From Macrocystis pyrifera (lineage: Eukaryota; Sar; Phaeophyceae; Laminariales; Laminariaceae), in contig JASSKH010000010.1 in the NCBI GenBank assembly GCA_031763025.1, forward strand, positions 14,780,085 to 14,844,084: 64,000 nucleotides of DNA, written 5' to 3'. The notes beneath the pieces were generated by a model, which saw only the letters and a list, made by a program, of their open reading frames with translations, did not search any database and was not told the origin of the DNA. The translations under genes were made by a program, and so were the position numbers. Below are positions 13,706 through 60,765 of this stretch, one piece after another. How positions within the stretch are numbered: the first letter of the stretch is position 1; each line of letters opens with the position of its first letter.

Positions 13706-16700
13706 GTGGGAGGCGTTTGTCTCGTGTTGCACTGCTAGTGTGCTGCTATTGTTGCTGTAATTGTTGCTGCAGTACGGTTTACCTGGTGGGGGATTGAATC
13801 GGTCAGCTTGTTTGTGGAAGATGCTGCGTGCCTGATAGTGCTTCACGTGATGCCCTCTATTGACACAGAGGTGGGAGGCGTTCGTCTCGTGTTGTACTGC
13901 TAGTGTGCTGCTATTGCTGCTGTAGTTGTTGCTGCAGTACGGTTTACCTGGTGGGGGATTGAATCGGTCAGCTTGCTTGTGGAAGATGCTGCGTGCCTGA
14001 TAGTGCTTCATGTACCTTGCATCCATTTTTCTGGCACAATCGCTTGGACGCGTCTACGGTGGACGCCTGCGTCCTTTTTTGTTTTGCCGATGCGAGGGCA
14101 AGACTCCCTCTCGCAGTCTAAGAAACGCCGTTTGACTCCATTTGACTGGTCAGTTGGTTGTCGGTTGCACGACGTTGGATGCTGGACATTGGATGCGCCG
14201 ATTCAAAAGATGAGGCATACCCGGAGCACTCTCGCCGTAATACCCTACCATACGGCCTAATCCTACTTCCTGGTGTACTCCCTCGTTTTCACCCCCAATA
14301 ACGTAATGAGTGCCCAATTGTTGGAGGTATCTCTATTAGGAGTAGGAACGGTGCTCCGTCTCGAAAGGGATGCGTGATCAATGGTCAAATGACTAAGGCA
14401 AGCAACAAACGAGTACGCCCCCCCCCCCCCCCCCCCCCCCCGTTCCGTCTCGAAAGGGATGCGTAGTCAATAGTCAAATGACTAAGCCAAGCAGCAAATG
14501 AGTACGCGCCCCCCCCCCCCCCCCCCCCGCCCCCGGCTGCCTTAACAATCAACTGACAGGTCGAGGGTATGCTTGACAAGTCTAAGGGAACGCTTAGGCT
14601 GCTCCGCGACACTCTTGGCGACGAGCGAGTGCCTTCCCTCTCCCTCCGGCGTCTGAAGGACGCGTACCGGGCGGGCCGTGGCAGCGTTCGCTCTTGGACC
14701 ACTGCGGGCCTGTTCCGAACAGGTGAGAGCTGTATAGACGTATAGATTGCTGTGTAGACGTGTAGGCTATAGACCTTGCCCCGGCTTCTTCGACAAAATG
14801 ATTGGAAAGTTGAAGGCTGAAGTTGATTTTCAACGTGAACCCTAACCCTTACCGTCTGGGAAATTTCCCGGAATGAAGATGTGATGTAAAGAGAGTGTGG
14901 ACTACAGCAACGGGTACCCTTTTCAACAGCCCCTCGAAACGGGCCGGCCATACCGCCCTGATCTCCGAGCCGCTGGTATCCCCATTTAAGAGCGATTTGA
15001 TGTTTTCCCGGGAAAAGAGCACAAAAATCTCTCTGATATCCTATTTTTCGCTTGAAGTGCGCAAAAGCTCGCAAAGCGGGAAAAGTCCGGCGAAGCCTGG
15101 TTATCAAAGTTTTCGGGCCAAGCCGAATTTTCTGCCCTTCCTTAAGTCAGTTTTCTCTTGTTATGGGCGCTCTTAAATCGGGTACCGGTATGTATCCCAC
15201 TGCTGTATAATCGAGTTAGTCGGAGCGGGCCCTAGCCGTAAGCAGTTGAGGAGCAGGTGATGGCTGGTCACGCGTGGGTGTGTGACGGGGAGTTGGAAAC
15301 TCAAGTATGCCGGTGACGTGGGTCTCTGCTGATGCTAAACCAGTAGCCATACCGGACGGACCACTGTTGTTGTTTCGCACTATTACGGGGGACCATAGTA
15401 AATAGGATCTACGGTACACACAAAAACCTATGTATTCAACTAATTTTACAATAAATATATATGGTCCTATTTACTAGGGTCCCCGGTAATAACGCGTTTG
15501 TGTCGGGTGTAAACCAAAGCAACCTTGAGGTGGCGTCGCCACGACCAACTCGCTGCTGCTGCTCGCTCTTCCGCGGCGGGGGGCGGGCGACAGGACTGGT
15601 ACCTCCTGATCAAACTTGGTATACGAAACGTACGTCACGCCCAACTCACTTCTGTTAGTTTTTTTTGGGGGGATGTACTCAGTGTCATGCGTGGCGGTAG
15701 TTGTATGACCGCGCAGAGGGTGTGTGCTCATTGACATGCATGGCCGTACGTAGTCGTATTACCATAGACCCTGGCATCGCTACAATATGCCGAGACAGAG
15801 CACATCGGGTTTTCACGGACCAGGCGGGGGGCAGAAATGAAATGATACCTCTTGACCAAACAGTCCAGTACGGAAACCTAAACACACACTCCGAGAGCGC
15901 CCCCTTGTCCGGCCTCGCCCCGCCCCCCTATGATAATCTATGATATTCGCTTACTGCCGCACTTTCTGAACGATATTTCTTGCCGATCTGGTGCCTAGCA
16001 TGCAATATGGAAACGTAAACATACACTCCGCGAGCACCCCCCTGCCCCCCCCCCCCCCCCCCCCCCGCCGCCCCACCTCTTATGACATTCGCTTACGGCC
16101 ACATGTTCTGAGTTCTGAACGGTACGTATTATTCCTTATACCGTAATTGTTGCTCCCGGCGCGCGCAGGCCATGTCGCGGCTGAATCAGGCGCTCCTCTG
16201 ATCGAGGTCGGGCAAGATCGCTTGGGCGTCTTGTCTTCCACGGAAGCCTACCTCTTCCACTTCCAGATGAAACCGACGCCAGAGGATGGTGCGCAAATAG
16301 CCGGCGGGGTAGGCAACATGGACAGTCCTAAGGGGGGGAAGAAGGAGGAGGATTTGCATTTGATGTACCTGTGGCTGGGACGGGAGGCCGGCGCTGAAGC
16401 ACGAACAGCAGCGCGAGCGCAGGTGCGTGGGGTGCGGGGTCTTGGCCTAGCGGAATTGGTCGTTAGACTGGCGGAATCTGCCGTGGAATAATTTGTCATC
16501 GCGCTGTTGTATCTCTCCTGCGCCGTGCTGGAGTGTCCTATGTACGAATAGCAAAATAAATATTTGTTTTAGAAAGCGAAAACGTAACATTTGCTCGATG
16601 TGCCATGGTAGCGTCCGGACGCGCTTTTCTCCTCTGCGCTGTGCGGTCAAAACAAATTACTCTTCGGTGTGTGTTCAAGAATGTCTTACCTCTTGCCTAC

Positions 16701-17207: not shown

Positions 17208-17239
<32 letters not shown>

Positions 17240-19565
17240 TGTACTCATGTCATGCATGGCCGTACAGCGGTAGTCGTATGACTATAGACCCAAGCACGCT
17301 TACAATGCCGGGATGGGGCACGTCGGGTTTTCGCCGACCAGGCAGGCGTTCCTTGTACCAAGCGCGAAGCGCCGTGAGGTGTTGGGCAAGTCGCATGAAG
17401 AGTGAGCTGCATCTTACCTAGAACCGCTTGTAAGGCGGGCTTGCGGGGAGGGAGAGGGGGGGGTGTTGTAGATGTAGGGTTAGCATCTTAAAGGATACGC
17501 GCGCAACTAGAAGAGGGTACAGCAGCAGGAAGGGTTGCGGTGGGCGCACTGCAAGGCAAAGTGCGGGTAGGGTGTGTGACAGGCTATGTAGAGGGTGTGG
17601 TATCGGTTTGTGTTGTTCAGGGACAAACTTGAGTAGAATTGGTCTTCCGCGTAAGTCTAAAACCGAGTTGTGAGCTGCCAATGTGGCTTGTGCGAATATT
17701 GTGCCGGAGAACACAATTGCAATTAATATCGATGCCGTTGACTCTCCCCGATCACGCCACATATGTGGCAGGGTCGCATCGCCTTCGCGATAAGACAAGT
17801 ACCTTGGTAGGTGTTTGGGCTCCCTGTCCTCGGGCACTACTTGTTCTTGAAGTGACCGGTGACTAACCGACCTACGGACAACGCACTTGTTGAAGCGAGA
17901 CTGTTGCAACGAGAGAGGTACATGTCCAATCACGAAGAAGGATGGTTGTTATCATGGTATAGGAGAGCGCCTTTTTTTTTACGCGTCTAAACCGTCAAGG
18001 TATCCAGGTCTCATTTTACTGGTTTTTATTTTAGTGTTGGGGGCGGTGAGACTAACGGTCCATCCACGGTCTCATTAAATCCCGCAAAACCCCCTGGTGT
18101 CTGTTGTTGCCGAATCTCACTAGAAACCCGTCCTCCCACACAACACACCCTCCATCCATGGCCTATCGCCCCGCTCCACCCCGCGCAGGGTGCTCGAATT
18201 GCAGGAAAGCCCCTGTCTGCACGGATCGGGTATAGCGCTCGCTGTAGAGGGGGATGCTTCCCTGTTGGCAAAGCACGGACCTTTGCCGGGCCGCAGCTAC
18301 GTTATTCTCGTGCGCCCTCGTCGGCGCCGGGTGGGAAGCGGCGGAAGCAGCACCCCCAGTGGTAGCGGTAGCAGCGAAGGAGGAAGGAGTGCGGGGGGGG
18401 GTGGAGGCGGTGGCGGTGGTGAAGCTGGGAGGAGGGCGGGTGTTTGTGCTTTCGACGAGGGGTACTACTGGCACGGTGTGGGAGAAACGCCTGCTGTTGA
18501 AGAGGTAAGTTTTTGCCTTGGGAATATCGGGATTTTTCTTTGGGGGGGGGGGGGGGGGGGGGGGATTGGACGAAAGGAAGGGCGTCGGGTTTTGTACTGT
18601 ATTGTTCGCGACGAATGCAGGATTTGTTCGTATATGTAAGCACTGAACGAAGGCTTTTGTCAGTCGTTTCGTGCTCGGGTTATATTGATGTTGTCTTCCC
18701 GTATATCGCTTGGGTTCGAGAAGTCGTGGTCGGATGTTTGCACGACCATGCCACTATCTCGGCAGCGGGTTGATCAGTGCTCTACGTAGCGTATTGTACT
18801 CGGCGTCGGTTGGCAACAACGCCACAGCAGTACGTGCTAGATCACGTAATGGGCAGATCAAATCAAAGGCGAAGTTGACCAAACACGGAGTACCAGGTAT
18901 TAAAAATTGGTATAGCTCTCGTCGGTATATGGTGGTGTATACCAATATTTGTGTGCAACTGTCGTCAATTTGTGTGCATTATTGATATTAATAGTAGAAG
19001 GGAATAATTCCGGTTTGGATTGTAATGCGTAGGTTTTGTCGTGATTGGCAAAAAAAAAGGAACAAATCGTAAGAAGGGAATGTTTGCGGTCGGAAGACGC
19101 GGAGACGGTCATAAGGCTTCAAATCCCCGCCCTCATTCACCCCGCTCCAAAGTAAGGCATGCCCTATATACTCTGTTACCCCGCTTTAGGACCGGACTCC
19201 CGTTTCGGGAGAAATTACTTGAAATTTTGCCTAGATATCAGTTTGTTTACACTACCGCAGTGCACTTCCAAAAAAGGCTCTTGAGTGACCGTGCAAACCA
19301 GCAACTCGGTTCGCTTGTAGCATCAGATATTACACTACGAATAACAGAATGCTATTGCGCGCCTTCCCACATGTCATGCCATCCAATGCCCACATTGATT
19401 TGCATCGGTCAGGTGGGGATCCTTCTCTGCCAGCAGGTAGACCGCATGTTCCCCTCCCCGCTGACCATCGAGTGCGCGAAGCGGAGGAGGAGAGGGACTG
19501 GGAAGAGGCGGCGCATCGACGTAGCGGGGCTAGGCTGCGGGATGATGAGAGGGTGAGAAGCAGAA

Positions 19566-19596
<31 letters not shown>

Positions 19597-22500
19597 CTAT
19601 GCTGGCGGTAGCGACTCTTGATATGGAAATAGAAAGTTTGAGATCTCTGGATGGGCTGGAAAATATATATATGTATCGCGACAGACGTCGCGAGTGAGTC
19701 ATCATACGGCAGGATCAGTGTTGGACCTTGGACAACTCATGGCTTCCCACTCCATGATCTAGATCGTCCGAGGTGCCATGTTCTGTTACGGGAGACCACA
19801 GTAAATAGGACCAAATATTGTTAGTAAAAATAGGTAAATACATAGGTTTTTGTGTGTACCGCGGGTCCTATTTACTATGGTCCCCCGTAATAGATTGATA
19901 TCTGATCTGCAGGATCTACTCAGCCCGTTTGTGCCGGGTGGGAGCCATATATCCGGCTTGATCTACAGTAGTAGAGCAGGTTTCCTGGGTTGCACTTGTG
20001 CTACGGTACACGGATCCTGTACAGCGTATGGTATCGGCAGGTTAGGATAAAGATGACCTACTGTACCTGTAGATGATGTATATGCAGCTGGTAGACCATC
20101 TATCTGTCCAACGTGTGAAAGCGTGGGACCTCGATGGACTACTGTACGTAGAAAAATGTTGGTCGACAGACACTGCCTACTGTACCTGTAGATGATGTAT
20201 ATGCAGCTGGTAGACCATCTATCTGTCCAACGTGTGAAAGCGTGGGACCTCGATGGACTACTGTACGTAGAAAAATGTTGGTCGACAGACACTGCAAGTG
20301 TTACGGTACCAAAGCTGAAAGATCTTGATGGACTGGACAAATGATCGTCTCGATTGAGACACAGCGAGCGTGCGGAATCTTGGGTTTTGATCGCCGCAAG
20401 GTCGCACTTGATCGATAGCCGTGGTCTCCGTCCTTGTTGGTGCTGTTGGTGCTGTTCGTTCTTGAAGTGAGTCTTCGGTCATTGTTATGGTTTTGGTTGT
20501 TATTTTTTTTTGTATTTGAGGTGGATTTTTGGACAGAAGCGTGCGAACCGGGGCGCGCGCTCGGCGCTGGAGTGTTCCATCACCTCGCCGCGCCAAGCCA
20601 GTGATGCACTCACTGAACGGCGATCGCGGTAGCGCGGCTGTTTTTTTTTTTTTTTTTCCTAGTTTTTCGCCGTTTCGGAAAGTCAAGGAAGATGTCAAGG
20701 TTGTCATGGTATAGAGCGTACGGCACAGCAGTGTAGTGTGCGTTGCAGTGAAGAGAGGGCTGTGTTTTAAGAGAGAGATGTGCTTGACTTGATCCCTCTT
20801 CAACCCGCACTCATGTAAATAACCCTTCGAGGGCCACACTCCCATTTTTTGCGACAATTGGGGAATGGTTACTTGGAATTAGAGTTTGAGATATGTTTAT
20901 GTGCAGCAACAAAACAGTTAAAATCGGAATAGGTACGCATGGTATATGTTTTGTATAACCGTCCCAAGCCATTGCCATCTCTCAAGGTAATATTTCTCCT
21001 AAACCGATAGCTCTTTATCCGTGGCCCCCTTTGTATGCCTTACTGCTACTACTGACGTATGCTGTACTGTTTGTGTCGGTGGGCGGTCTACAGCAGTAGT
21101 GAAGTCAGCATGTCACTGCTAACAACGTCGGCTGTTTTGTCTCCTCTTTCTTTAAGGTACGTAAAGGGCATTTTTTTTTTTCATTTCTTATTTATTTAGT
21201 GTTTGTTTTGTTTTGCCGCTGTTTCTCTATTCTACTTCCTCGAAAAGATACGTGGCGGACGTGAAGCTCGGCTTGCCCGTGCCGGACGGTTTTTGGGCCT
21301 GCATCTTCCCGCAAACGTCGGCTTCGACTGGGATTCGGGCTGACGACCGGAAGCTGCTTTCGCAAGATTTGAGCCCGGGATTCCGCTCGCGCCCAGTGCG
21401 GGTGTTCGGAGTATGCGCGGAGAGCAGGAAGGCGCGGCAAAGCTTCGTGTGGGAGGTGAGCACCGAAGAAAGCGTGCGAGCCTAAAGATGGATGCCAGGA
21501 GGCCGGTCTTTGGCTTCAACGTCAAGGCTTCTTGTGGTCGTAATATTTACCGGGTACCTGGGACTAGACTTTCGTGTAAGAGTGGTCATTCAAGGTGACA
21601 AATTTCCATTGATAGCATCTTCGCATGCAAGGCGCGGGGGGGGCGTGGAGGCAGAACTCAAAACGGTAGGGCTGGGTACTGGCGATACACCTCGCCTGGA
21701 TATCGCCTGGGGATACATGTCTCCTGCCTGGGGGAGCTGCCAGGATGCCAGTGAACAGTGACCACATACGCACGCCCCTCTAAAATGTCTCGAAAACCGA
21801 ACGAAATACCGGTAAAAAATGAGCCCTGCTCCTACAGTAGAGGGGACATGACATGACCATACACTTTCGCGACATTTTTGCTTGTTTTTTTTTATTTGGT
21901 CACCCCTGAGCCGATCACTCATGGCCGAAATCAACGTACTTTTTAGCTCTAGTGAAGCGTAATCGCGTAAGACCGTGCCTCTGCCGGGGGCCCCGTCACC
22001 AGCCGGTCGGGGGTTGCGGGCGGTCGCGTTTTCGTTGCGACCAGCTTCCTGTTCGGATCTACTGTAGTTTGCCGGCTGCTGGTGCAGCCAGGATTCTCGT
22101 GTCCTCACCAGTACCCACCCAGCCTCACCCAATGTGCTCGTATTTTAGCTGCCCGAAAAGCACAACAAATATGGTACTCTGTACCAGGTATGTATGATGC
22201 CAGTATAGACGTGGTGTAACTACTGTTTGAAAAACATGTCCAATTACCAATTACGCTGAATGATACGCCAGCCCAATGGATAGGATGACCCGCACGGGAG
22301 GAGACACGAGCCAATTTTTCCTGTCAATCTGCCCCTCTCGGTTCATGCTGCCGCTCTCTTGTCCTAACACCTCTCAGGTCACTTGTGGCGGTATGCCGTC
22401 CCAGATGAGGCTGTCGCCTTCCCTTTCTCACGTTGTTGATGCTGGTGGACCCCTGGTGTACGTTTGGCACGGGGCCGGCAGTCATGGAGACGGTCGCAGG

Positions 22501-24398
22501 TATGTACCGAGCTCGAGCTTTGAAAATATGCAAATGCATCATGTGCCGTGTTGCGCGTTTTGTTTGCCCAACGGAAAGCTAGCGGTCCGTGCCATTGCGC
22601 CTAAACTCACCACACTTCCACGCTACCAAGTCGCTACGTAGCACGCGTTTGACCAGAGAAAATACCTACGGTACAACACACCAGTATATATATATACCTT
22701 GGTGAACGATCAGCGTTTGATTGAAAAAAAATAGGAAAAAATATTTACATACCTGGTACGTATATATATCGTGCTAAAAAAACGACGGGCGATCGTTTTG
22801 CTAACCTCTTCCCTCCGTGCTCGTATTTGCGTCGACCGAACCGCGCAGGCTTGCGTTGCGCGTTGCTCGTACCTACGCGACAAGCGTGGAGGGCGGGACC
22901 ACCGTGGAAGAGGCAGACGCAGGGTCCGAGCCAGTCCGTCTCCTCGACTGCTTCATAGGTTCGTGCCGCGCAAGGGCGCTTCGTAATAATGTACGGGTAG
23001 TGTATACCTACCATGGTGTCTCTTTTCTTCTTGTTTTCATCTCATACCTGGTCCTTCCCTATTGTAGTCGCACCTCAGATCCGGGGTCACCTAGTAGGCT
23101 CTTTGCCCCCCCCTCCTCCACAGAAGGCACTAGGATACACTAGCAAATGGAGGGTGACGGCGAACGTCAAGAAATGCGCAGTAGTTGTTTGTAACGAAGG
23201 CAATGTGAACCCTGTAAATTTCAGTTGGAAGCGGGGAGAAGATGAATTGCCAATCGTAGACCAGTATACATACCTTGGCGTAGAGATCTTGGGGTACACA
23301 TATAGCAAGAGTATCAGCAAAGGGTAAAGCACACGTAGGCAAGATGGATGCGATGCTGACAGACTCGCACCTTGATACTAGGGTTAAGATATGTATCCTG
23401 ATGAATGTGATAGTATCAAAGCTAGAATATGCAGGAGAAGTATGGGAAGGGAACGCGAAACTCGTAAAACAGTTGGAAACAGTACAGATGACGGCAGCTA
23501 AAAAATATTAATACGCTTAAGTACGACTAGTAATAGTAATATAGTATTAAGAGCAGAACTGGAAATGCACACACTCAAGACAAATAGAGACATGAGAAAG
23601 TTGAAATGGCAATACCAAGTAAGGAACATGCCAAAAAAGAGGTTGCCAGCCATAGTTGATAGAGCTGTATGGGAGAAAAAAATAAAAGTGTGAGCTGGAA
23701 TAAGGTGGGATGGCGTAGTTGAGAGAGTATGGAAGGATATAGGGGTAAACCAAGAAGAGGTGATGTCCGCCGGGAAGTTTGAGAGACACAAGGCAGAAGT
23801 AGAAGAAACGATATAAAGAAGGGAAAGGCTAGCGCTAAGAAACAAGGTGAAATCGGGAAAACACTCAGAGATATGCCGGGGATTGAGCGAAGGAATAGGA
23901 CTGAAAACGTATTTGCACGGCCCAATAGACTTCGCGAAAACGCTGAAACTGCGCTTTCGTGTAGGGTACCTGGACCTGCCAGAAAGAAAAAAGAGGTATA
24001 CCAGTCGGGAGGAGGAGGAAGTAGACGCACAGATGTGCCCGTGTGGCAAAGCAATAGAGAGTAAAACTTACATGTTAGGAGAATGTGAAATATACAAGGA
24101 GGAACGGGATCTGTTAGAAGAGGAGATGAGGAAAATAAACGAATGTAACATGAAGAAGTTTGGTACACTACAGTAGATAGCAGCGAGAAGACTATCGCTA
24201 TCCTAGAAGATAGATAGTGGCCACAGGCGGTCAAACGGGAAGGGGATAAGATTAGCGAAACGTTTCCATGCAATATATGGAACAACGTAATGGGCGCCCA
24301 ACTGTTGAAGGTGTCCCTATCAGGAGAACAAACGGTGCTTCGTCTCGAAAGGGATGCATGGTCAATGGTCAAATGACTAAGGCAAGCAACAAATGAGT

Positions 24399-24439
<41 letters not shown>

Positions 24440-27400
24440 ACACAATCAATTCATCGATTAATCTGTCGTATGTACTCTCTTTCTCTCTTTCTCTCCACCC
24501 CCCCCTCTCCCCCACCCATCAACTCATCGATTAATCCATCGTATGGATTGTCGTTCCTCTCTTTCTCCCCCCCCCCCCCCCCCCTTTCCCCGACCCATCA
24601 ATTCATCGATTAATCCATCGTGTTGATCGTTTCCTTCCCCCCTTCCCTCCTGACCGATCGATCCAAAGGTTGGAACCAGGCTCTTGTGGAGCCGCCGCCT
24701 ATGCTGGCCTTCTCTCCGCAGAGGATTGGCGCACGTCCGGGAAGTGCCGCGGGTGTGTCGCCCCTGACTACACCCACCACGGCCGCGTCCCGCGAGGTGT
24801 CCTGGTCGACGACGGACGGGAGGCGGTCGAGGCCTGGGTGTGAGGAAGATCAGAGGCTCCGCATGTCTGGCAGCAGGGCGTCTTCTGGCAGCAACTCGTC
24901 TGCGTCGAGACTGACACCCCCTGGACAGCGCACGCCTCCCGTTCGCGTGAACTCACCGGGAACACCTCCTCTTCGCGTGAACTCCCCGGGCACGCCTCCT
25001 CTTCGCGTGAACTCCCCGCCGTCGCTGAAGAGTTTTGTTCGCGGAGCAGCGTCTCCGGCTCGTTGCCACGTGACTGCTGCTGCTGCTGATGCCGAAGTTT
25101 TCCCTGCTAAATCGGAGTTGTTTTTGGCTAAGACTACGACTACCCCGCGACGAAGACGATCTGCTGCATTCGATTCGCTCCTCGCGAGGTATGATGGCTC
25201 TATCGGGCGCGAGGATGGAGGGATTCTTTCGCCGTTGTCGCCACCGACGCTTGCGCCGCCGCACGCTCGCGTGCTGAACCACCGAAGGAACTCAAATGTG
25301 GCGCCGGGGTCTACGCTGCCGTTCCACGCTGACCGCAATAAAAGCGCCGGTAGTGAAAAGCACGCTTTATGTGGTGAGCCGTCCCACAGCAGCGGTGACG
25401 GTGCTGACTGCCACCGGCGGGAAGGTGGTGGTGGCGAACGATCACAGTCCAGCGCCGGACAGGACGGCTACCGCCGCGACGCCGAGATCAATGTAGGCGG
25501 GGGCCACTCTAAAAGCGACGCTTTTAACCACGGCACCATCAAGGGAGGAGGGGGATACTCTTTTGGCGATGCTGCGAAGCTCTGCACCAGCGACACGCGC
25601 GACAGCGTTACGGGCGGCAGAGACCGGAGCCAAATTGACCAACACGACCTTCTTGCCGCTGATCGTGGACCCAGCGACAGCGGTCGGAGCGAAGGCGTTG
25701 ACCGAGGCAAACCTTCCTGCCGCTGATCGTGGGCCCGACGACAGCGGTCCGAGCGAAGGCGTTGACCGAGGCAACCTTCCTGAGGATGACCGTGAACCGG
25801 GAAGAGACGACGATCTGGACCGCGGTGAGAAGAAGGACTGTCCCCGAGATGGAGACGAGGAGAGCAGTGGTGACGCCGGTGAGGTGGCCAGTGGTGCAGG
25901 TAACGGTGGCGGCGGCGGCGGCGGCGGCGGCGGTAGCAGCAATAGTGGTGGCGATGGTAGCGGTAGCGGTAGCAGTGGCGGTAAGGATGGCAGCGACAGC
26001 GGTGACACGCAAGATGGCGAGGGTGGTGGGGAGGAGGAGGAAGAAGATGAGGACGAGGAGGGGGGGGGGGGGGGCACATTTTTTGCGCCTATCGGAGGTA
26101 GAATTCTGTGAGGGGACCGGTGCGCTGCATAGAGCAGTGAGCGTCGTCGCGCGGCAGCCGCCGCCGCTGCCGGAGACAACGACGAGCAGCGACGGGGCCC
26201 GGCCGAGTTGTGGCCGTAGAAGTAGCGGGGGCGGGGACGGGGGTCGTGTCCCTCTGTCGCGACACTTGAGCGACTTTTTTAGGTCCCCGCTTTCTCTGGA
26301 CTCGACGACCTCGCCGACCCCGAAGCTTCGTCTCTCTCCGGGGAAGTCGCTTGCGGACGTGCAGTCCGGGGTACGCCTGTTCGACAGCGTGAAGAGCGCG
26401 ACTTCCGATTGCAGCGGTGCGCATAGAGACAGCAGCAAAGACGCGCAGACCAGGCTTGGGCTGTTTGACAGCATGAAGAGCGCCGCTTCAAATGGTAGAG
26501 GTGCGCATGCTAGGGACAGCAGCAAGGACTCGCGGGCTGGGCTTGGGCTGTTTGATAGCATGAAGAGCGCCGCTTCCGATTATAGCGGTGCGCATGCTAG
26601 GGGCAGCAGCATCCTCGTCGATGCGGAGAACTTCGGTCCTGAATGTGGCGGCAGAATTGCCAACAGTATTGCTAACGCTAACCCTGGGGATGATATCGGG
26701 GACGCCCGCCCCCCCCGGTACTCGGCCTTATTTAAGGAAACTGTAGCCGACGAAGATGCTTCTGCTTCCCTTGCTCCGCCCCCAGCGGAGACTGCCGAAG
26801 CAGCGCTGAATACAGGAAATGTGGAGCCTGAGCCTAGCCCAAAGGTGTTTCTGAAGGGGGGGAAGGCGGTGCCTGATGATGTGTCCATGGAGACGTTGCT
26901 TGATGCGGCCTCGGGGGCGGTGAAGCGGTTATCGATCGAGCCGGCGGCGGTAGAGTCGGGTAGATCTGCTTTCAGCGGCGAAGGGGGTGGGGGCGGGTCG
27001 ATCGATGGCAGAGAGAGCGAAGAGGAGTGGTTGTCGCACCCGAGGAATGGAGCCGTCGTCCCTATCGAGGGTGGAGAAAGCTGGGTGGACGGCGGGCACG
27101 GCAGCAGCAGCAACAACAACAACAACAACAACAAGGCTTTATCCCAGGCAGAAGAGGGTCCTTCGTCGAGCAGCAGCAGCAACAACACTTGCTCGCAGGA
27201 AGAGGAGCGTGCCGGTGCGTCGAGATGCGGTAGCGGTGGCGGCGAGCACGTCCCCCCTAGCGAGAAAAGTCCCTCTGTATCATCGGAACGCCCGGAGGAG
27301 GAAGGACAGCCAAGGGCAAGCAGCAAGGGCGGTAGGGGTGGGGCATTGAGAAGCCTTGGCTGGGCAGGCCTAGATGAGGATGGGATGTGGCGAAGCGAGG

Positions 27401-30400
27401 TCGCTAGGCGGGCGGCTGGACAAGCTGGGGCGGTGGAGGCGAATCGACGTCGCCTGGCCAAGATTAGCAGGGACGAGTCGTGGAGATCAGATGCGGCGGC
27501 GGTGGGCGATGGGGAGGCCGCGACGACGGTGGGAGGAGGGGCGAAAGGCACGCGGGATATACGACGGGATAGCACGAGCTTCATCCGGATGCAGAGCGGC
27601 AACGTTAGGTAGGCCTGGAGAATGCCCTTTGACCTTTAATCGAGGGAGGAGAAGCGGGTTTGGAGGGGAGGGGAGAGGCGGGCAGGGGGGGGGGGGGGGG
27701 GGGGGTCGTCATGTTTGCATTGTGCCTTTATCTTGTTCCTGGTACATAAATCCGATAACAAAAACAGTGCCAGTATTACACGGAAACCAAAACAAAATGA
27801 CGATCCACAGAAAAGTTCTAAGGCCTACCGTAGATAGAGACGGGGGGGTATTCTCAACCCCAAGATATAAAACAATGTCACGTTTTTCGTTTCGCGCTGA
27901 AATCCCGCCCGGGTTGGCGGGGGGGGGGGGGGGTTCGTCACGTTTGCAGGATGTGGCCTTTTCTTGCACTTTCGGCGACCCTTTCATTCGTGCAAAAATT
28001 ATCCCACATCGCTCCCAAATAGTTTGTCACCAAAAAGTAGTTGCAAGTACCTGGTAATTCTTAAGGATTTAACTCCGACTGTCCATATATACAAGGTACA
28101 TAAATATAGATGTGATGAGGATAGAGGTGGTTGTTCTAACAAGGCGCTGCATGACAGACCGTACGCTTGTACGATACATGAATGAACCACTACAAGCATT
28201 AGACTACTGTATATATCGCATAAGTGTATCTGATGAATACCTCGTAGCTGGTTGTAGTCTAACTCCGGAGTCTGATGTGGAGGACGATTCGACTATCGCG
28301 TGTTGCATTAGCTCCGCGTCAAAGAGGTAGGATTTCTTTTTTACTGTACCAAGCACGCGTTTCTACACTACGCTACACTAGCCTACCGGCAGAGGCCGTC
28401 GTCCGACAAGGCTTCAGAAACGTTTTACGAAGAACGACAGCATCCTGATTTCGCTTCCTCCTGTCCTGCCGCTCTGTTTTTATGGATGGCTCTGTTAGGG
28501 ACAAGCTCAGCATGTTTGAAGGTGGTTCCGGGGCGTCGACAGGCAAGGATAAATGCGACAATATGTCAAGGTCAAGCATCGGGGCCCTTAACGGAAGGGG
28601 GCTTGTTAGTAGCTGGAGCAAGGTGAACAATAATTCACATATGATCACACGTGCCGTTTGAAAATTGAAGAGGGGGGGGGGGGGGGGGGGGGGTACTCAT
28701 GTCATGCATAGCCGTACGTAGTCGTGTGAACATAGACCCGCGCATCTCTACAATGCCGGGACGGAGCACGTCGGATTTCACCGACTAGGCAGACTTTGCT
28801 TGCACCGAGCGCGAAACGCGTTGAAGTTTTCGGCGAGTCACAGGAACAGGGGAGTGAAGCTTCGGTTCGTCCGTCCACCTGCACCTACAGTAGTTGCCAG
28901 CTTTTTCGGGGACGAGCTACTTGGAAATAGTGTCGCGCCCAGTTCGGATAGAACGAGCGGAACGAAGCAGCATTGAGCAGGCGTCCGCCGCGGGGGCGGG
29001 CCGTGTGCAGATGGATGGATGACTGCGTGGATCGCTCTGTCAAATGGAGTAGATATATAGGTGTATGTGCGTACTGAGTATGCTTACATTGTAGTTGGGG
29101 CCGGGCTCTGTCGCATCGCAGCGGGTGGCCGCTTTCGGACTGATCGTTTTGTTGGTTCCTGGCGCGTGCCGTTGCCACTGCCGTTGCCGTTGCCACTGGC
29201 ATCGCCATTCATACTACCGTTGAGGTTGCCGGTACCGTGTACATCAATCATTATGGCCGTTACTGGTACCGTTGACATTGCCGTCGCCGCTAGCGTTACC
29301 GTTGCGCCCCGTTATCATTACCGTCGCGTGTCGTTGCCGTTACCGTTTAGCGTTGACAACACCGTTGCTTGTACCGTTGCGCTCCGTTACTGTTGTGTGC
29401 CCGTTGCCGGTTACCTTTGCCGATTCTTCAGAGAAAAATGATTGCCGTCGAAGAACAAAGCAATGCCAGCAGCGCTCGCAGCGGTGGTAGCGGCGGCGGC
29501 GGCTCGTGCCCCCCCTGGCGCGACGAGGGGCTGAAGCTTCGCGGCCCGCGCCACGACCAAAATAACGCTGAGGAAGAGCAAGAAGTCGATTTCTTTGGAA
29601 GCAGGGACCATCGCCTCCGCCTTTGAAGGGGAGGCCGAGCCTCGGGCTTATCCGCACCGGGCAGGTCCGTATTTTGTCGAAGCAACTGGTGATGCTGTGT
29701 CCGGACGGTGTCAAGCGAGGGATTGCCAGAGCTGATCAAGCCAGAGCTCGCGAAGAGGTGAGCTTTTAGATGGATGGGGAGGCGGGGTAGCTCCTGTCGT
29801 TTTTTTAGGCTCCTCGCCTGAGCTCTCTGTCTCAGTGACTAAAAGAAATAAGCGAAATAAACAATGCCATGTCCTCTATATAGGTATGCAACACATAATA
29901 TTTTTAAACGTGGATGACATTCAAAAAGATAAGGCATGCCTTGCCTTCTTGGGTACCAGGTGGTTGGTTAGTTCCTCAGTGCTGTCCGTGCCCTTAAGGA
30001 CCCCCCCCCGTCAGTCAGAAATATTGCCAAAGAGGCCAAAAAAGAACTGCCTCTTTCGTATCACGGGTCGGCAAGGGGAGTGTGTGTGGCTGGGATGTAT
30101 TCCAGAGGAGGCGTTTATGGCCTAGCTTTGCTGAGGTATGATCGTCGGCCGGCGTGTTTTTTTCGCCGTCGCTTGAGTGTAGCTTGCTTGCTCGTGTCGT
30201 TGATGAAAAGCCGGCGATGAAGGGGCGAATATTGCTGTACCTGTATATAATGTCCCGAGTGGCTATACTCGTACAAGCTAATCGTATGCGCGCTCTAAAA
30301 GTCTTAGGCCACCTTGTCGCCGCTGCTCTCCTGTTCCTTTTTTAGGGCGCCGCGGTGAGCATGGAGCAAGACCTCGAAGGAGCTTGCAGAGCCCAAGGCG

Positions 30401-31180: not shown

Positions 31181-33302
31181 ATGGGGTAGGCGTAACATGA
31201 GGAGGAAGAGGGGAAGGAGGAAGGTGCCCGAGTAGCCCAGAGCAAGAGGTACGTCAAAGCTTCCCCCGTGCTTCTCTCCAACCACTGTCGCGGCAGGTTA
31301 AAATATGACGGCAACAGCCTGGGCGACAGATGGGGGCACACCCTCATGCAAGCAGTGGGTGGAGAGAGTCAGTTGCTGGAAGCCCATTAGCGGCGTCATC
31401 GCATTCGCGAGACGGCGGGCTTGCGAGGCCGTAGAAAGGACGCTGCTGTACCTCAGTTATTTCGGTCGTTGTCCTCCGGTGAGCATGGAGCCAACTGCCA
31501 ACAACCTACAAGTCTCGGTTGGTGACTACTGTAGAGTCACGCGTCACGGGTTTCCACGAAAGAAAATGCGTTTACGTAGTTTCTGTGCACGAGTAGTGGA
31601 ACATGAACCAAACAGTTTTGTTTACGTGGTTTTCAGGCCATGTCAGAAGCGTGCTCATCTGGCATGCACCTGGAATGGGGTGTTGGGGTAATAGCCTGGC
31701 TAGGTGAGCTATATGAGAGCGCACGCTGGGCTACCCACCAGTTTACCGTATACCAGGTACCTGGCAACACGCAAGAAAACATACCCCCTGGGACTAATTT
31801 CCGATCACCCCACTGCTATCTCCAAAACACGGGGAGCACTGGCACGCACACACGCAGAACGATATGGTCAATCTTTGGAAAACGTATCGTCGTGCTTGGA
31901 AATATCTCGTCGGGGTCTTTCTGCGTATAATAGACGCATCGCTCGTCGTGTTTTGCACTGTCTCTCCCTCCGTATGAGAGGAAATCAACCTTGAGGTTCG
32001 CCCGAGGGTGCGCGCTATCCTCTCTTGAGTGTTATTGTACGGTAGTTATCCGAGAGCGCAGGCTGTTTAGGGGGTGGCTCATGTCGAGCATGGCAGGGGG
32101 GGGGGGGGGGGTGCTCGCATTATTGGCCTGACGAGGGTTAGTTTCGCCTTGTTTCGTGTTTTGTTTTTTTTGTGAGGTAGTCGGGTGACAGGCGTCCAAG
32201 CTTTACTTTACTCCCTTTCGAATTGCTGCACCCTCGTTTTTGGCGACAAGCTACTTGGGATTGGTGCAGGATTTTTTCTTGCAGTAGTCGAAGTGTTGAC
32301 GGTGTTTTCGGGTTCTACCACATTACCCCCCGCCCCCGCGCCCGCGCCTTGTGAGGAGCTAGAATAGCGCGGTTGCTCGGCCAGTCGGTCACCTGGTAAT
32401 TATGAACTCCTTGCTTAACAAGCGGCAACACACGTTGCTGCCGCGAGCGTATGAACGAATGCCTTGACAAGCTGCAGCAGCGGTGGCACACACCAGTTTT
32501 GCTGCCGCGCGTCGATTTCTGTAACCATTGTTGTTTTTTTTGTTTTTGTTGCCGTGGTGGGTGGTGTGTAGGTTGGCGGGTGAACAGCACACGGCAACGG
32601 CGTTGATTGGGTTAGCAAATGGTGCAGACCTTGGGCTATAGGGGAGGGCGGGGTGGGGTGAATTGAGTTGGGCGTGTTGATACATTCTCTGTTTTGCGGA
32701 TCCACATTTTTGACTGATGTGTTCAACGGAGCGTGCAGTAGTTTAGGTCGTGTGGTGCCGTGTCACGTACTATACTTCGATGGTTATTTGTGTGTATACT
32801 ATTTTTGTTAATTGAGCCCGCTGAAAAAAAAAATGCTGAGGGAATTACGGTAGTAGCACGTTGTGCGAGCGATACTTGGAATTCCGGGATAGATACGTTT
32901 GTCGACTGATTAACTTGCGAGGCGGGTAGGAATAAATCATGAGCTTTTCTTCGGACAACGCCTCATTTTCGCAGTCAAAAGGCGCCCAACCTGGATATCG
33001 TGAATCTTTGCAATTGCCGTGCGTGGATTCATCCGTTCATCCGTACAGCGCTCGCCTCGTCAGCCTTCCTTCGGCCATCAGCGTCAATAGCATCTTCACC
33101 GAATTAATTGTGAGGTGTTGATATGGCGTATTTACAAGTTCGCGAGTAAATCTACTATGCTAACTGTAAGTGCATGCGTCTTGATGAAACAAAGAACATG
33201 GGAGAAGAGCACAACGCGATATACAAGTATAGCTATGTTTCGTGTAAGTCACGGCAGCAACCAAACACCCTCGAACCTAGAATAGCTATTCAACGGAGGG
33301 AG
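30892..33302. other. Spacer between convergent genes
   Basis: Besides the triplicated unit, a G run at 32097-32110 (possible LINE-tail relic continuing to about 32280, with GACAAGCTACTTGGGATTGG) is visible. No exon was recognised; open frames are short. Confidence 0.5.
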
Positions 33303-36300: not shown

Positions 36301-38150
36301 GCACAACTTCAAGCAGTACTGCTGCAGTACTTTCAAGCTGCATCCACACACGCTTTGGGCACAAACTATCCGAACTAAGAGTTGGCCTATTTTCGCAGTA
36401 TTAGCCTGTGCCAGGTACAGACCGATCTTGATCTTAACAGCTGCAGTATCACACTCATACTCTAAATACGTTTAGAACTGATGCACCCACGTTTCTGAAA
36501 AATTGTTATGCAGTACTAACATACGATTTCCTCTTACTCCGTTGAGGCGAGACAGGTGTGCCGAGCAATTGTGGCTCTCTTAAATCCATTATGATACCTA
36601 GTATTAATAGTTCTTTTCGTAGTGTACTGCACTGTAAACCGATCTAGCCCCGACTTGTACACAGCTCAGCTGATGTACAGTATCAGGTACCAGGTATATT
36701 TTATTCAATTACATCCCATTCATTATCTCCGCCTTGCTTGCTCCTGCTCCCTCCTAACAGTAGTCGCAACTCAGATCAGGGGTCATTAAGAAGGCTCTTT
36801 CGCCCCATCCCCCTCCCCACTATTACAAGGTTCGTGCCTTGCACTTTTATCGCGAGAAGAGTTCAGCACTTTCTTCCCTCGCCGATTCGCGTCGGATGGT
36901 GGCTACCCACGCGCTGAGGATAATTGGTGTCCTTATAATTAAAAAAGACTTAGTATGGAGACATAGAACCCCCGACCTCAACCTCAATAGTATTCGAGGT
37001 TAACAACTAGATCACCGGGGCGACCAGTACCTCACCTACTGGAGCATTCGTGTTCTTCGTGGGCAGTCACAGACCCCGAAGGAAGGTCTCCCCACGCCTT
37101 GCCAGCAGGACAAACACGCGCAGAACAATCTGCAGCGCGGTAGAGGGTAAGATCGGTGTCTGCCCCCCACCCTTCGTAGCACGTGCATCTGAACCAAAAC
37201 AACAACAGCAAAAGAGCCGGCGTCAACTAACGTTGTCACGTGCACTTACGTGTACATCAGTGCATATATGCGTCTCCAACTCTTATCTCCGAGTAAGTGT
37301 GTCCCCAAAACTCACCCCGCTTTGTCGCATTGTTCGTAAATGTAAGGACTGCTTGAGTGTTCAGCACCTGGTATGAAGGACCAGACAGTGCTTACATTTC
37401 CGAAGGGAGGAATATACTCGTATACTCTTACAGTATGTTCACGTCCAGTATCGGACACCTATTAATATACCCTAGGTACCAGGTATCTAACGGGAAAGCT
37501 GTTGTTCTAGGCTACAGTAGATTTCCTACAGTATCTGAGAATGGACGCGTTCTACTGTACTACCGCAATTTCAGTCGTACAATTAATAAAACGACTCCAG
37601 AATTTCTTGATTTCCTGACTTTCTTATTGCTCGAGGCCTGTGCTACGCAGTTGAGTTGTATACGACTGGTGCTTGGTAGCCGTTTGGATTGAAGGGAAGA
37701 TGACCCACGTCGGTCGCACATGTGCATACTAGAGACGATATTTTCATCGGCGTCTACGACTACGGGGCTGGCTAAGGCCACGCCAAGGGAATGCGCCGCT
37801 CTACCCTTCTTGCGTGTATTGCTCGTGTGTGTATTACGTGTGCTTCGTACAAAAGCTTGCCTGCTGTACGTAATCGTACCGGACGGAGTGAGGAAGCCGC
37901 TACAAAAGCGGAAGACAAACACTGGTAAACCCGAGCAACACACATCAGATCATCAGTTTCGCTGGTGATGCTATCACGACAAGCGCCACAGGGAGCGGTG
38001 AGATTCTTACGTGCCAGTTCCCGTGTTGCATGTGCCGTGCCCGTTGCACCAGTTGAAGAGAGAGCACCCAGCGTTGCCTCGAACACGATGACAACTCAGG
38101 ATGACGAACAACGTCAGGAGGGGCAGCACGAGAACGGGCGTGTACATCAT
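33303..38150 (-). CDS. Secreted EGF/tenascin-like repeat protein, complete five-exon gene
   Basis: Exons on the minus strand: 38150-38011, 37188-37036, 35491-35316, 34667-34447, 33434-33303 (TAG). All four introns have GT..AG ends (donors GTAAGA, GTGAGG, GTGAGA, GTAAGC) and every junction keeps frame, giving 273 residues. Residues 1-25 form a clear signal peptide (MMYTP then a Leu/Val/Ile core). The mature part is a run of Cys-rich EGF-like modules: [110 protein letters not shown] and CP.G.AW blocks are typical of EGF/tenascin-like proteins of stramenopiles. NVT sites could be N-glycosylated. No transmembrane segment or GPI signal is visible, so it is probably secreted to the wall or medium; partner unknown. 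Confidence 0.85.
33557..33850 (+). repeat. GATAGATCAT repeat, two copies
   Basis: GGACAGATAGATCAGATGATC at about 33561 and CATCTATCTGTAGACAGATC at about 33788, the latter followed by GTCCGACCGAGGTGTGGAATC, resembling wording at 20057-20400 and 12860. Dispersed repeat; no coding capacity. Confidence 0.45.
34797..34916. mobile_element. MITE, family M1, copy 4
   Basis: TATTACTGGGGTCCATAGTT at the left, GGTCCCATTAACTATGGACC...CCGTAATA at the right; core with AAAAAACTATATATTTACC. Lies in the third intron of the EGF-protein gene. Closest to copy 5. Confidence 0.85.
35779..36060 (-). mobile_element. Solo LTR of the Ty3/gypsy family at 60488
   Basis: 282 bases, TG...CA ends (TGTTAAGATCAAG ... ATCATAACA). 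It is the reverse complement of the LTR at 60488-60765 over most of its length. No clear target-site duplication, so it is probably old. In the second intron of the EGF-protein gene. Confidence 0.75.
36761..36832 (+). repeat. Dispersed repeat shared with 23065-23130
   Basis: TAGTCGCAACTCAGATCAGGGGTCA then AAGGCTCTTTCGCCCC, matching TAGTCGCACCTCAGATCCGG.. and AGGCTCTTTGCCCC at 23065-23120. About 70 bases; could be part of a SINE with the tRNA-like segment 120 bases further on. Confidence 0.5.
36955..37026 (-). repeat. tRNA-like relic (possible SINE head)
   Basis: Read on the minus strand, CCCCGGTGATCTAGTTGTTA resembles a tRNA acceptor/A-box region and GGTCGGGGGTTCTATGTC the T-arm/B-box; an arm AACCTC...GAGGTT lies where the anticodon stem would be. 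Too imperfect for a working tRNA. It ends about 10 bases from the donor of the second exon of the EGF-protein gene. Confidence 0.4.
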
Positions 38151-39212
38151 ATCCTTCCAGCCCAGTTACGAATACTTTATATCTGTGTTCCAATTACCCT
38201 TTTCCTGGGAGTCCCGTGGACGTCATGTCCTTGAGTCGGACACTAAACTCCGTAGGGTTAGCCCTAGGTCCACTTCGCCCTCTTCCAGAGAATGCCGCGG
38301 TGTGCAGCACGTGTATTTTTCTTGTCTACGAGTTGTATGATACTCGTAGGATTGTGACTGGATCTAGTGTCAGTTGTACAGCAGTAACGATACCCAGCCG
38401 AGAACATCCGGTGTTTTGATTGGCTGGTTCATGACGGTTTCATGTTTTCTGTACACATCGAAGAGTGAAATGGTGGACACGTCAAAAACGAGTACGAGTA
38501 CATGCCAAAACATACCACAGGCACGATGGATAGATAGATGTAGGTCAGCCGTCGACGCTATTACAGCAGTATCAGGTAAGATCAATTTCGTAGGGACTGA
38601 TGATAGTCGCTACTACGTAGTCGAGATTTAAATCACTACTACGGGGACATTTAAGCTCCATCCCCAGGTTTTCGGCCTTGCGTTTCTCATATGCAAACCC
38701 GCCGCATCCACGATCAACGCGTGTAGTCTCCGTCCTCTCCAGCACCCCAGACGGCTCCCAGGGACCAGTAGGTGACGACAGCGAAGCCCTTCAGCGTCCC
38801 TTCACGCCATAGAACCATCAAATTCCGTTGCTGCAGCCCTCGCAGCCCTCAACACCGACACAAAGCGCGCGCTCCAGGAAGAAGACAGCACACAGCAGTC
38901 TGCGAGTATGTATCATCAAATTTCCCAGGTAACATGATACCAGTAGATTTTGAACCCGACGCCTCCGCAGAATAGCCAGCTCCCAGCGATCAGCGCACGA
39001 CCACAGAGAAGCTCTCCACCGTCTCTCGAAGTGGGTATCACGCCATAGACCCGTCAAATATCGTCGCTGCAGCTGTCACATCTCCCGAGACACTGAGCGC
39101 TCGCTTTTCTCCGGGTCGAACGAGACAGCAGCAGTGCAATTTCAAATAGCTCCCGGTATAATGGTACTGCTGTACCGGTAGTCTCAACGACTAGTAAAGT
39201 GTACGCACGGTT

Positions 39213-39321
39213 GGTACGGGGGTCCATAGTTAATAGGACCCATGGTATACATAAAAACCTATATATTTACAATTTTTTACTGACAATATTTGGTCCTACT
39301 TACTATGGACCCCCGTAATAG
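39213..39321. mobile_element. MITE, family M1, copy 5
   Basis: TACGGGGGTCCATAGTTAAT at the left, GGTCCTACTTACTATGGACC...CGTAATAG at the right, core ACATAAAAACCTATATATTT. About 108 bases. Confidence 0.85.
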
Positions 39322-39845
39322 TACGATCGCACTCTCTACAGACTTGGGCAGTACCAGCGCTCTAATAAGAAACGTTTTTGTCGGCCAAAGGTCCTACACC
39401 TTGTTATGCTGTTGTGTGCTGTTCGAAAACAGCAGTGTTTTCCTACCAGCAGCCAGGTGGTATTTTTTGTACCTTCTTACGTCAATTACGCCTGTGGTAT
39501 ATCCCGGGAATCGATGTAAATGTTCTTATTTCTTACTTCGGGAAAACCAGCGGTAGGATCGCGCGTCTTTAACGGGGTACATACCGGTATTTACACACAT
39601 TTACGCTTGTCAGCAACAGCTTAGTACAGCATTCCGCTTGTCTTGTATGGCTGGGAGTATGTGCTGAAAGCTTTTTTTGTGTCGAACGTTGGAAGGCAGC
39701 TCCCTTCCTCTTTCTTATTTTACTGTGACGTTCAGCCTTTATCAATTTGTAATTGTTTGGCTGAGCAGTATGCTGGAAGCTTGTTGTGTCTAACTTTCGA
39801 CTGAAGCGCCTGTCCGGGCCTGCTGATCCCCGACGAACAGCAGCC

Positions 39846-40135
39846 ACCCTGTTTCTTCACTGATGCTTGACGGCACGTGTTTCTTATTCCGCCGTTTCTT
39901 GTCTCTATGGAGCATTTAGGCACCGTTCCTTATGCCCAATTCTTCTAGTGTCTTAAGGAATAAGCCTTCTGTATTTCTTATTTACGGCGGACCCTGTTTC
40001 TTCACTGATGCTTGACGGCACGTGTTTCTTATTCCGCCGTTTCTTGTCTCTATGGAGCATTTAGGCACCGTTCCCTACGCCCAATTCTTCTAATGTCCTA
40101 AGGAATGAGCCTTCAGTATTTCTTTTTTACGGCGG
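39846..40135 (+). repeat. Tandem duplication, 145-bp period
   Basis: ACCCTGTTTCTTCACTGATG starts copies at 39846 and 39991; the units differ by a handful of bases. Each contains TTACGGCGG near its end. Directly upstream of the OTU/SWIM transposon-like gene. Confidence 0.85.
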
Positions 40136-40215
40136 GCCCGTACTTGGGGCCGCGCTGGCACACGATGACGAGGTACTACGCCTGCTGGCTGCAAGCATTC
40201 TCTCGTGCCGCTTTT

Positions 40216-42688: not shown

Positions 42689-42699
42689 TGTAGCGGGTA

Positions 42700-44645
42700 G
42701 TCTATACAGTTGTTTATATTTCGTGTTCAGGCCGCTGGTTGCATGCGGTTCCCAGCTTTGTAAAGGTCACCTGCCAAAGAGCCAACCGATAGATACAAGT
42801 TCATGCACGAGAGAGCTTGGAGGACAAACATTTCTATCACTCAGTAAGCTGACCGCTCGAGAGTCGCGCTACTATAGAGAGTGTGCGCTGGGAGTCAATC
42901 GTTATGTTTATGGCGGATGGTGCTCAACTGAAGAACTGCCCAGAAAACAGCGGTAGTATTGGCAATCCCCGTCCTTTGCTTACAATTTTTTTAATGTTTT
43001 CGCGAAGTGCCTTCATCAGTTCACGGGATAATAATTGGGGACATCGTGGTGCGCGTGCACAGTTTTTTTTTTTTGTTTCAAGCCGTTTTTTGAACACGTG
43101 CCAGGCACCAGGTATTTTGTTGGAAACCTCCCTGACATTGGCTCTAGGAGAAAGGTACCATATCTACAGCCAAGCAGTTGCGGTTTCATCAGAATTAATC
43201 AAACCACCTGCAACCCTACGCCATGCGATGTCAAATTCGTATTCAACTAATGCCTCTCTCGTAGTACCGGGGATCGTACGTAGCACCCGGGAAACTTGTA
43301 TGTGCGACACCCGTTGCGGTCGATGCACATACGGTACAGCACACACCATTAATGAAATGGGTTTGCTTTCGTAATTTCACGCTACAAGGCAGGCTGAGAT
43401 CTCCCAGAACATTTGAAATATTCTAGGCTGTGGCCCCCCGTTGCAAAATATGAAAGGCCCTTTACCGCTACTGGGGCGAAGCCCCAACAGCTGCGGTCGC
43501 CCAGCTTCTTGTTCGGAGCCGTCGAGCATACGGTAGCGGTAACATATTCCAGTTTTATCGGCTCGAGTTTTGCCCGGTGAAAGCAAGAACGAGGTCAATA
43601 AGACAGAAGGTCGCCAAAAGGAACAAAAAAATAATCAACCAAGATTCAGCCTGAACGCTCGGACTGCTTTTTCTTATTATCAACTCTTTTCGAGCCTGAA
43701 CGCTCGAATTCCGTGTTCATTGTATTGACCCTTTCGAGCCTATGTATCGCGACGAAAAAATTGCATGTGTGGTCCTACAGTACCAACAGCCCACTATTAG
43801 GAACAGCGTGCAGAACTCCGAGTACGTTCATGCTGCGCGGTGGTTCACTCCAATTTCTTCTGCTGTACCACGACTACTGCTGTTGTAGTATTGCTGTGCT
43901 ATACGTACTGCTGTACGGCGGCGGGACGGAGGCGGAGGCGGCACGAGGAGCAAGCAGGACGAGCATCACATCATACTCGTACTGGCAGCTTTGTTTGCTG
44001 CTGCAGTACCTGTAACCATGTTGACTTGCCACTGCTACAGATACCATAGTACAATACTATTAATTATACCAATATCTATCTGCTGGTGTAAGATACAGCC
44101 CGTACTTTGGTACTTTGTGTCCGTCTTGAGAGCTGTGAGGGCTGCAGCAACGGGGCTTGATGGTTCTATATACACCAAAAGGAACGCTGAGGGGCTTCGC
44201 TGTCGTCACGTACTAGTCCCTGGGCGCCGTCTGGGGTGCTGGAGGGGACGGATACTACACGCGTTGATCGTGGATGCGGCGGGTTTGAATATGAGAAACG
44301 CAAGACCGGAAACCCGGGGATGGAGATTAAATGTCCCCGTAGTAGTGAGTTAAATCTGGCTACGCACGCAGCAGTAGCGACTATCACAGACTATCAGTCC
44401 CCCCCCTCTACCCTCTACGAGCTACGAGTCAAGGAAGATGTTGTAAACATTTGAAGGCTTTATTGCTTCAACTTTCCCATCCCCCTACTATCACTAGAAG
44501 ACTACAACAGTTGTTGGGGCTAGCCGTAGCTGCCTGAGCCACAACAACGACTGTTGATAGTGTACTGCAACGCAAGACGCAGTACTTGCGAGGGTGCCTT
44601 GCAGAACTGGTAGAAGACTCCAACCTGCAAGCGTAAGATTTTTTT
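42700..44645. other. Spacer
   Basis: No exon recognised. A short direct repeat GCCTGAACGCTCG at about 43650 and 43696 and several TACTGCTGTA-type words are the only structures seen. The promoter of the glyoxalase gene should lie in its right part. Confidence 0.45.
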
Positions 44646-60487: not shown

Positions 60488-60765
60488 TGTTAAGATATTG
60501 TCTTGTATGATATTGAAAGCCCGGTAACTACCTGGGTTCAGTCACTGGGAACGTATTTGTAGTACTTGGAAGGCGTATCTTAGATGGAAAACCAGGGGTT
60601 TTCCAGAGGAGCACGAGCTTGGTCTCAGTCTCCGCGTGCACGAAAGGAATAAAACTGCTCTTCTTCTATAGCTAAGCAAACAACACATGTGAGTACAATG
60701 TTTACCGACTTAAAAGGCAGACCTGTCCAGGGATACAAAGTGTCCCGAAACCCTTGATATTAACA
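60488..60765 (+). repeat. LTR of the gypsy element
   Basis: 278 bases, TG...CA with a nine-base terminal inverted repeat (TGTTAAGAT / ATATTAACA type). Reverse complement of the solo LTR at 35779-36060. Confidence 0.8.

Follow-up and report, generated by a model that had tools for sequence, protein, structure and literature searches.

The F1 element and its surroundings

The window, the whole stretch of 64,000 nt analysed here, carries a decayed LINE-like element (F1a) followed by a run of 39 C, and two shorter copies of its 3' end (F1b and F1c) that are also followed by long C runs. The features at these places are as follows:

23122-24399, + strand: F1a, a 5'-truncated, decayed LINE-like element; its 5' limit is a judgement, give or take some 15 nt
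23001-23324, 23284-23508, 23502-23690, 23694-23813, 23817-24173 and 24256-24393, + strand: open pieces within F1a
24367-24378, + strand: a small possible hairpin in F1a, GGTC-AAAT-GACT, about 21 nt upstream of the C run
24394-24396, + strand: TGA stop of F1a (frame ...QMTKASNK*), followed by GTA (3 nt) and then the C run
24400-24438, + strand: C39 following F1a, its first C being part of the common GAGTAC
24439-24660, + strand: 3' flank of F1a with tandem Y units (cores at 24445, 24518 and 24597), two sister units having a C-rich tract where C39 sits
14297-14441, + strand: F1b, the 3'-terminal ~119 nt of F1 with G and C24 after GAGTAC; its 5' junction lies directly after CACCCCC
14442-14528, + strand: F1c, the 3'-terminal ~62 nt of F1 with GCG and C20 after GAGTAC; it begins where the C24 of F1b stops

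F1a corresponds to the C-terminal part of an ORF, split across several frames, of which about 350 aa are left; its 5' limit was put where the frame turns LINE-like. The frame ...SRKGCMVNGQMTKASNK closes with the TGA at 24394-24396. In F1b it is open across the last 36 codons and the stop position reads CGA, and in F1c it is open across the last 18 codons and the stop is kept. Since the stop of F1a lies 3 nt from the C's, F1 seems to have practically no 3' UTR besides GTA and the C's themselves. The product of F1a gave nothing above the cut-off against Pfam (one sub-threshold match to DUF2441, E 0.056) and no relevant match against PDB, and no RT or endonuclease domain was detected in F1, the 5' part being missing from the copies found. 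F1 looks like a LINE by motifs rather than by a domain match: F1a contains a YLG stretch, like that which follows the RT palm, and a Cys motif, CPCGK...GEC, both of which we take to be LINE resemblances.

The original prediction of a LINE 3' end followed by about 37 C was borne out at F1a, where the 39 uninterrupted C at 24400-24438 are flush with ...AAGGCAAGCAACAAATGAGTA. The same end with a long C run had been placed at 14295-14442 and 14443-14529, and both copies exist (14297-14441 and 14442-14528), but there the runs are not flush: G or GCG stands between, and the C run joins the 3' end within 2-4 nt. As to the independent insertions claimed there, long C runs do recur at separate copies with unrelated 3' flanks. 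Tandem Repeats Finder (TRF) calls the F1b/F1c pair an 89-nt repeat (2.0 copies, 91% matches); the distances do not favour an origin of F1c by tandem duplication of F1b. Over 58 nt, F1a and F1b differ at 3 positions, F1a and F1c at 5, and F1b and F1c at 6, and F1c is therefore no nearer to F1b than to F1a.

Several other repeats were observed in the window. Two 300-nt direct repeats (45254-45553 and 49845-50144), 100% identical, lie around a Copia-type RVT_2 ORF (46532-47938, minus strand), and the segment 45254-50144 has the appearance of an LTR retrotransposon that inserted recently. Between these direct repeats there are inverted repeats at 48283-48653 and 49335-49705 (371 nt, 100%) and, adjacent to them, at 48646-48988 and 49002-49344 (343 nt, 99%). 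An 873-aa ORF at 60764-63385, which we take to be Gypsy-like, has RNase H and integrase zinc-binding matches, with an integrase-core match just under the cut-off, and contains a 126-nt tandem array (~61324-62205). A 179-nt inverted repeat, 93% complementary (38624-38802 and 44179-44357), surrounds a SWIM zinc finger ORF (42113-42688), so that 38624-44357 is a possible MuDR-type DNA transposon. A perfect tandem duplication of 119 nt is found at 20057-20294.

A further family that shares the 3' end

The listing of all G/C runs of at least 9 nt in the window, with their flanks, brought to light a minus-strand family, F2, which goes beyond the original prediction. F2 shares the terminal ATGAGTAC with F1, and its best copy shares the last ~50 nt. 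Two of its runs, C22 (28672-28693) and C29 (17211-17239), are preceded on the minus strand by ...GCATGACATGAGTA and ...GCATGACATGAGTACA, respectively. The copies in the window are:

28672-28850, - strand: F2a, 3' part of F2, with C22 at 28672-28693
17211-17402, - strand: F2b, an F2 copy, with A and C29, the run lying at 17211-17239
15718-15825, - strand: F2c, 5'-truncated; its 5' junction lies after GCCCCCC, its end is GAGCACACACCC, and F2d adjoins directly
15659-15717, - strand: F2d, short and 5'-truncated; it starts at the end of F2c and has its own end, GAGTAC with AT, C6 and A8

An eighth copy comes from a public contig, JALZUP010000133.1 (1-4349), filed under a Robiginitomaculum MAG. It is one of six stretches matching AMATGAGTACNNNCCCCCCC in genome contigs, and the sole one of the six with a BLAST match to the window. 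The contig carries the F2 end followed by A and C11. Against F1a, this copy scored 57 over 53 columns, the largest of 1000 shuffles giving 26; against F1b and F1c, it scored 47 and 43 (shuffle maxima 27 and 25). A 3' end common to a LINE, as is typical of a SINE, was thus found in the last 53 columns of this copy and F1a. In the same test against F1a, F2a alone scored 23 (shuffle maximum 36) and F2b alone 20 (shuffle maximum 24), so that both failed; F2c passed by a small margin (25, shuffle maximum 23). The link between F1 and F2 runs through the copy in JALZUP010000133.1 and a profile of the eight 3' ends. The profile found the seven window copies and the one in JALZUP010000133.1, the next match having an E of 3.9, and a covariance model agreed, with the same copies and nothing further above noise; both models were built from these copies, which they match by construction.

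One further stretch (42 nt, 86%) is common to JALZUP010000133.1 and the window, and the contig has CCCTAA-type repeats; four of its ORFs had no match in Pfam. Because of the two repeats in common with the window and the CCCTAA-type repeats, we infer that it is a contaminating contig from a genome related to that of the window. Robiginitomaculum-type bacteria live on algae. In the same MAG, the only other contig with at least 11 consecutive C (C116, a run of 12) had no F1/F2 end before the run. Among 137 genomes searched with F2 DNA and 398 and 385 searched with the 3'-end model R1 (overlapping sets), copies were found in that MAG only. No relatives were found in viral contigs, where three candidates (L001, L002 and L009) had no BLAST match to the window and the flank in a fourth contig (L011) looks unrelated by eye, and phages and plasmids gave no F1/F2 match.

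After GAGTA (GAGCA in F2c), the seven window copies, from F1a to F2d, continue with C39, CG+C24, CGCG+C20, C22, CA+C29, CACACCC and CAT+C6, and the copy in JALZUP010000133.1 continues with CA+C11. Runs of at least 11 C are therefore present at six of the eight copies, and the remaining two, the nested pair F2c and F2d, have ACACCC and ATC6A8. A plain A-rich tail, as in poly-A-tailed LINEs of the L1 or Jockey type, was found at none of the eight (in F2d, A8 stands behind C6). Within the window, five of the seven copies have 11 or more consecutive C beginning 0-4 nt downstream of the end, as compared to 203 of the 128,000 positions of both strands. The sequence past each run differs between the seven window copies and the one in JALZUP010000133.1, and the C run is therefore not conserved sequence. 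Two outcomes had been named as counting against the original prediction. C runs lying within a longer conserved sequence were not found, as the differing flanks indicate; a majority of copies with other tails was not seen either, six of the eight having at least 11 C in a survey that covers one window and one contig.

As to its nature, we propose F2 as a putative partner family of F1, either SINE-like or a sister LINE, with the same 3' recognition end. The start points of F1b, F1c, F2c and F2d differ while the end is common, a pattern of 5' truncation with a fixed 3' end that is typical of LINEs; the start of F1a was judged. As regards an RNA-polymerase-III-type head for F2, whose copies found here do not extend to the 5' end, ARAGORN (bacterial code) found no tRNA in the window, and no Rfam family matched the window. 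A conserved stem-loop at the common 3' end was a weak candidate and was rejected: the hairpin has five consensus pairs, none with a compensatory change, and is broken in some F2 copies, and only one of six single-sequence folds, that of F1c (z -3.97), clearly beat its shuffles, the z values of the other five lying between -1.39 and +0.59.

Landing sites and the origin of the C runs

The 5' junctions could be placed for five of the eight copies, and all five abut C-rich sequence, two of them being the tails of older copies. F1b starts after CACCCCC, F2c after GCCCCCC, F1c after C24 and F2d after CACACCC, and the start of F1a, which was judged, lies near 23122 behind C8TCCTCCAC. The junctions of F1b and F2c were set by alignment to other copies; F2a, F2b and the JALZUP010000133.1 copy had no placeable junction and were left out of this count. 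Window positions directly after at least 5 C amount to 0.38%, and those after at least 6 C to 0.25%. A repeat at 36743-36819, likewise C-rich in that place, is similar to the 5' flank of F1a, and in the 3' flank one of the sister Y units carries C18 at the place of C39. These Y-unit C tracts may be the old target or, with lower probability in our view, tail copies that arose by tandem duplication. F1 and F2 seem to choose C-tracts for insertion, judging by these contexts. As C-rich sequence adjoins the placed 5' junctions, the target may have contributed to each run, and the anomaly lies in the tail together with the target choice. No target-site duplication outside the C runs, the check proposed in the original prediction, was seen by eye, and C-only duplications would look the same as tail.

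Long G/C runs occur in the window beyond these elements. Runs of at least 15 nt comprise 12 of G/C versus 3 of A/T, and 20 mononucleotide shuffles of the window gave G/C runs of up to 11. Five of the 12 stand behind F1/F2 ends and seven elsewhere, which means that long G/C runs are common in the window anyway. Two of the latter, at 27685-27705 and 27919-27933 (minus strand, 21 and 15 C), both follow GCAAACRTGACGA; they were not counted as members (score 31 versus a maximum of 29 in 200 shuffles). A motif search with up to two mismatches gave 6 matches versus 3.1 expected, and the two runs are possibly, though marginally, another C-tailed family. Long C runs also follow GCGAGCAC, which resembles the GAGTAC end, at 16032-16066 (+) and 32096-32121 (-). 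The runs themselves (16045-16066 and 32096-32111, after GAGCAC) were not counted, the F1/F2 profile finding neither above noise; the sequence before 16045 matches F1 weakly (26, shuffle maximum 23). At 19573-19596 there is A24 after GCAGAATAAATTT, a possible poly-A retrocopy end.

Our main reading, to which we assign a probability of about 0.5, is that F1 represents what is left of a LINE-type non-LTR retrotransposon with F2 as its partner, and that target-primed reverse transcription with C:G in place of A:T pairing would give the C tails and the C-tract sites together. That F1 and F2 retrotranspose is inferred from the features described above. The RNA of F1 and F2 would end in ...AUGAGUAC plus C's, and the endonuclease of the element would nick a target with a C-tract, for which it presumably has a preference. 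The G-run of the bottom strand would then pair as primer with the terminal C's of the RNA, reverse transcription would start there, and the long C tail may come from reiteration on the C template, from a C-tailed RNA or from both. Every insertion would leave behind a fresh C-tract, usable as the next landing site, and this would explain the two nested pairs. In favour, by our reasoning, is that if the reverse transcriptase had added extra C's to the end of the cDNA, the 5' junction would show G's rather than C's on this strand. Against it, the junction of F1a was judged, three of the eight 5' junctions are unplaced, and by eye no non-C target-site duplication was seen. With two of the eight copies nested in others, the independent events are also few. 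The RT and endonuclease domains that went undetected, the low scores of F2a and F2b alone against F1a, the seven G/C runs away from F1/F2 ends, the later slippage at C39 and the weak stem-loop likewise weigh against this reading.

Insertion into existing genomic C-tracts, in the manner of simple-sequence-specific LINEs, by an element with no C tail of its own, each run being the rest of the target, would account for the C-rich 5' junctions, for the position of F1a at the C-tract place of a tandem unit whose sister has C18, and for the seven of 12 G/C runs of at least 15 nt that are not at F1/F2 elements. If a long tract were cut at random, however, equal sides would be expected, and two of the three non-nested junctions are lopsided, with C5 (F1b) and an interrupted C8 (F1a) on the 5' side versus C24 and C39 on the 3' side. 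The number is small, and the third, F2c, lacks this lopsidedness (5' C6, 3' CCC); we consider this explanation rather unlikely. The terminal sequence common to F1 and F2, together with 11 C or more at six of the eight copies, would agree with a C-tailed RNA, either encoded as such or made by a C-adding enzyme, that is reverse-transcribed unchanged and inserted without a bias towards C targets. The C's on the 5' side would then be due to chance or to microhomology joining, yet all five placed 5' junctions are C-rich and two are the ends of older copies, and we regard such an origin as improbable.

Expansion after insertion, in which a few terminal C's (GTACCC) were lengthened later by replication slippage, is in our opinion very unlikely as the whole explanation: it needs separate lengthening beside six of the eight copies, plus an initial C end. 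The excess of G/C over A/T runs (12 versus 3 of at least 15 nt) is in its favour, as this DNA may tolerate or favour long G/C runs, and so is the purity of C39 next to a frame that is broken several times. As F1a is decayed while C39 is pure, the present run length stems partly from later slippage, which has very probably shaped C39. Each C run may mix tail, target and later slippage. Of the unusual priming or templating step originally suggested for one LINE family, the recurrence of long C runs stands; the runs are also found in F2, target choice seems to be involved, and slippage very probably contributes.

Relation to known elements

Non-A tails are known in LINEs and SINEs: TAA repeats in the I element, TGTAA repeats in UnaL2 and (TTG)n in plant RTE are given in the sections consulted of PMC3747384, and a non-A tail alone is therefore not unusual. 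The contrast with A-rich LINE tails that was originally drawn narrows accordingly to the pure C homopolymer. The same sections describe SINE/LINE pairs with a common 3' end and a proposal of template slippage for the tail repeats (PMC3747384). F1 and F2 are like these pairs in the common 3' end and the simple-sequence tail, and differ from them in the C homopolymer and the C-rich sites. No account of a C-tailed LINE was found in the literature searched, which leaves aside the spelling poly(C), Repbase and figures, and the pure C homopolymer tail is the part for which no precedent was found there.

L1 combines a poly-A tail with an A-rich target, and some R1-clade LINEs target simple repeats. 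F1 and F2 seem to be like the latter in inserting into simple sequence, their apparent target being a C homopolymer. With L1, for which homopolymer stretches are described as potential targets of later insertions (PMC2837659, in the part consulted), they would share the pairing of the tail with the nicked target and the homopolymer landing sites, whereas they would use C/G and a specific common 3' end.

Among brown algae, to which the host of the window probably belongs, Ectocarpus sp. 7 has RTE-X LINEs and an abundant non-autonomous element of ~600 bp, RTEX-N1_Ec32, with the same 3' end (PMC12477816, in the part consulted). A LINE and a non-autonomous partner with a common 3' end fit F1 and F2, and F1 perhaps has an affinity to RTE-X. 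The text consulted of PMC12477816, with the terminal motifs of its Figure 1C and its supplements aside, makes no mention of tail composition, the tail passage among those consulted being about Harbinger genes.

The tail of a LINE preserves a trace of how target-primed reverse transcription was started. If poly-A is absent, one may ask how an RNA whose stop lies 3 nt from the C run is terminated, and how it is protected and translated. The proposed pair, if true, could help explain why the window holds 12 G/C versus 3 A/T homopolymers of at least 15 nt. Tentatively, and with some doubt, we suggest that a LINE lineage may have replaced the A/T logic of L1 by C/G, a C-ended RNA pairing with a G-run at the nick, so that tail chemistry and target choice would be one property, each insertion would create a new landing pad and partners would exploit the same end. 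A C-tailed LINE with such a partner, if true, would be a natural test of whether the pairing of tail and target drives the choice of site.
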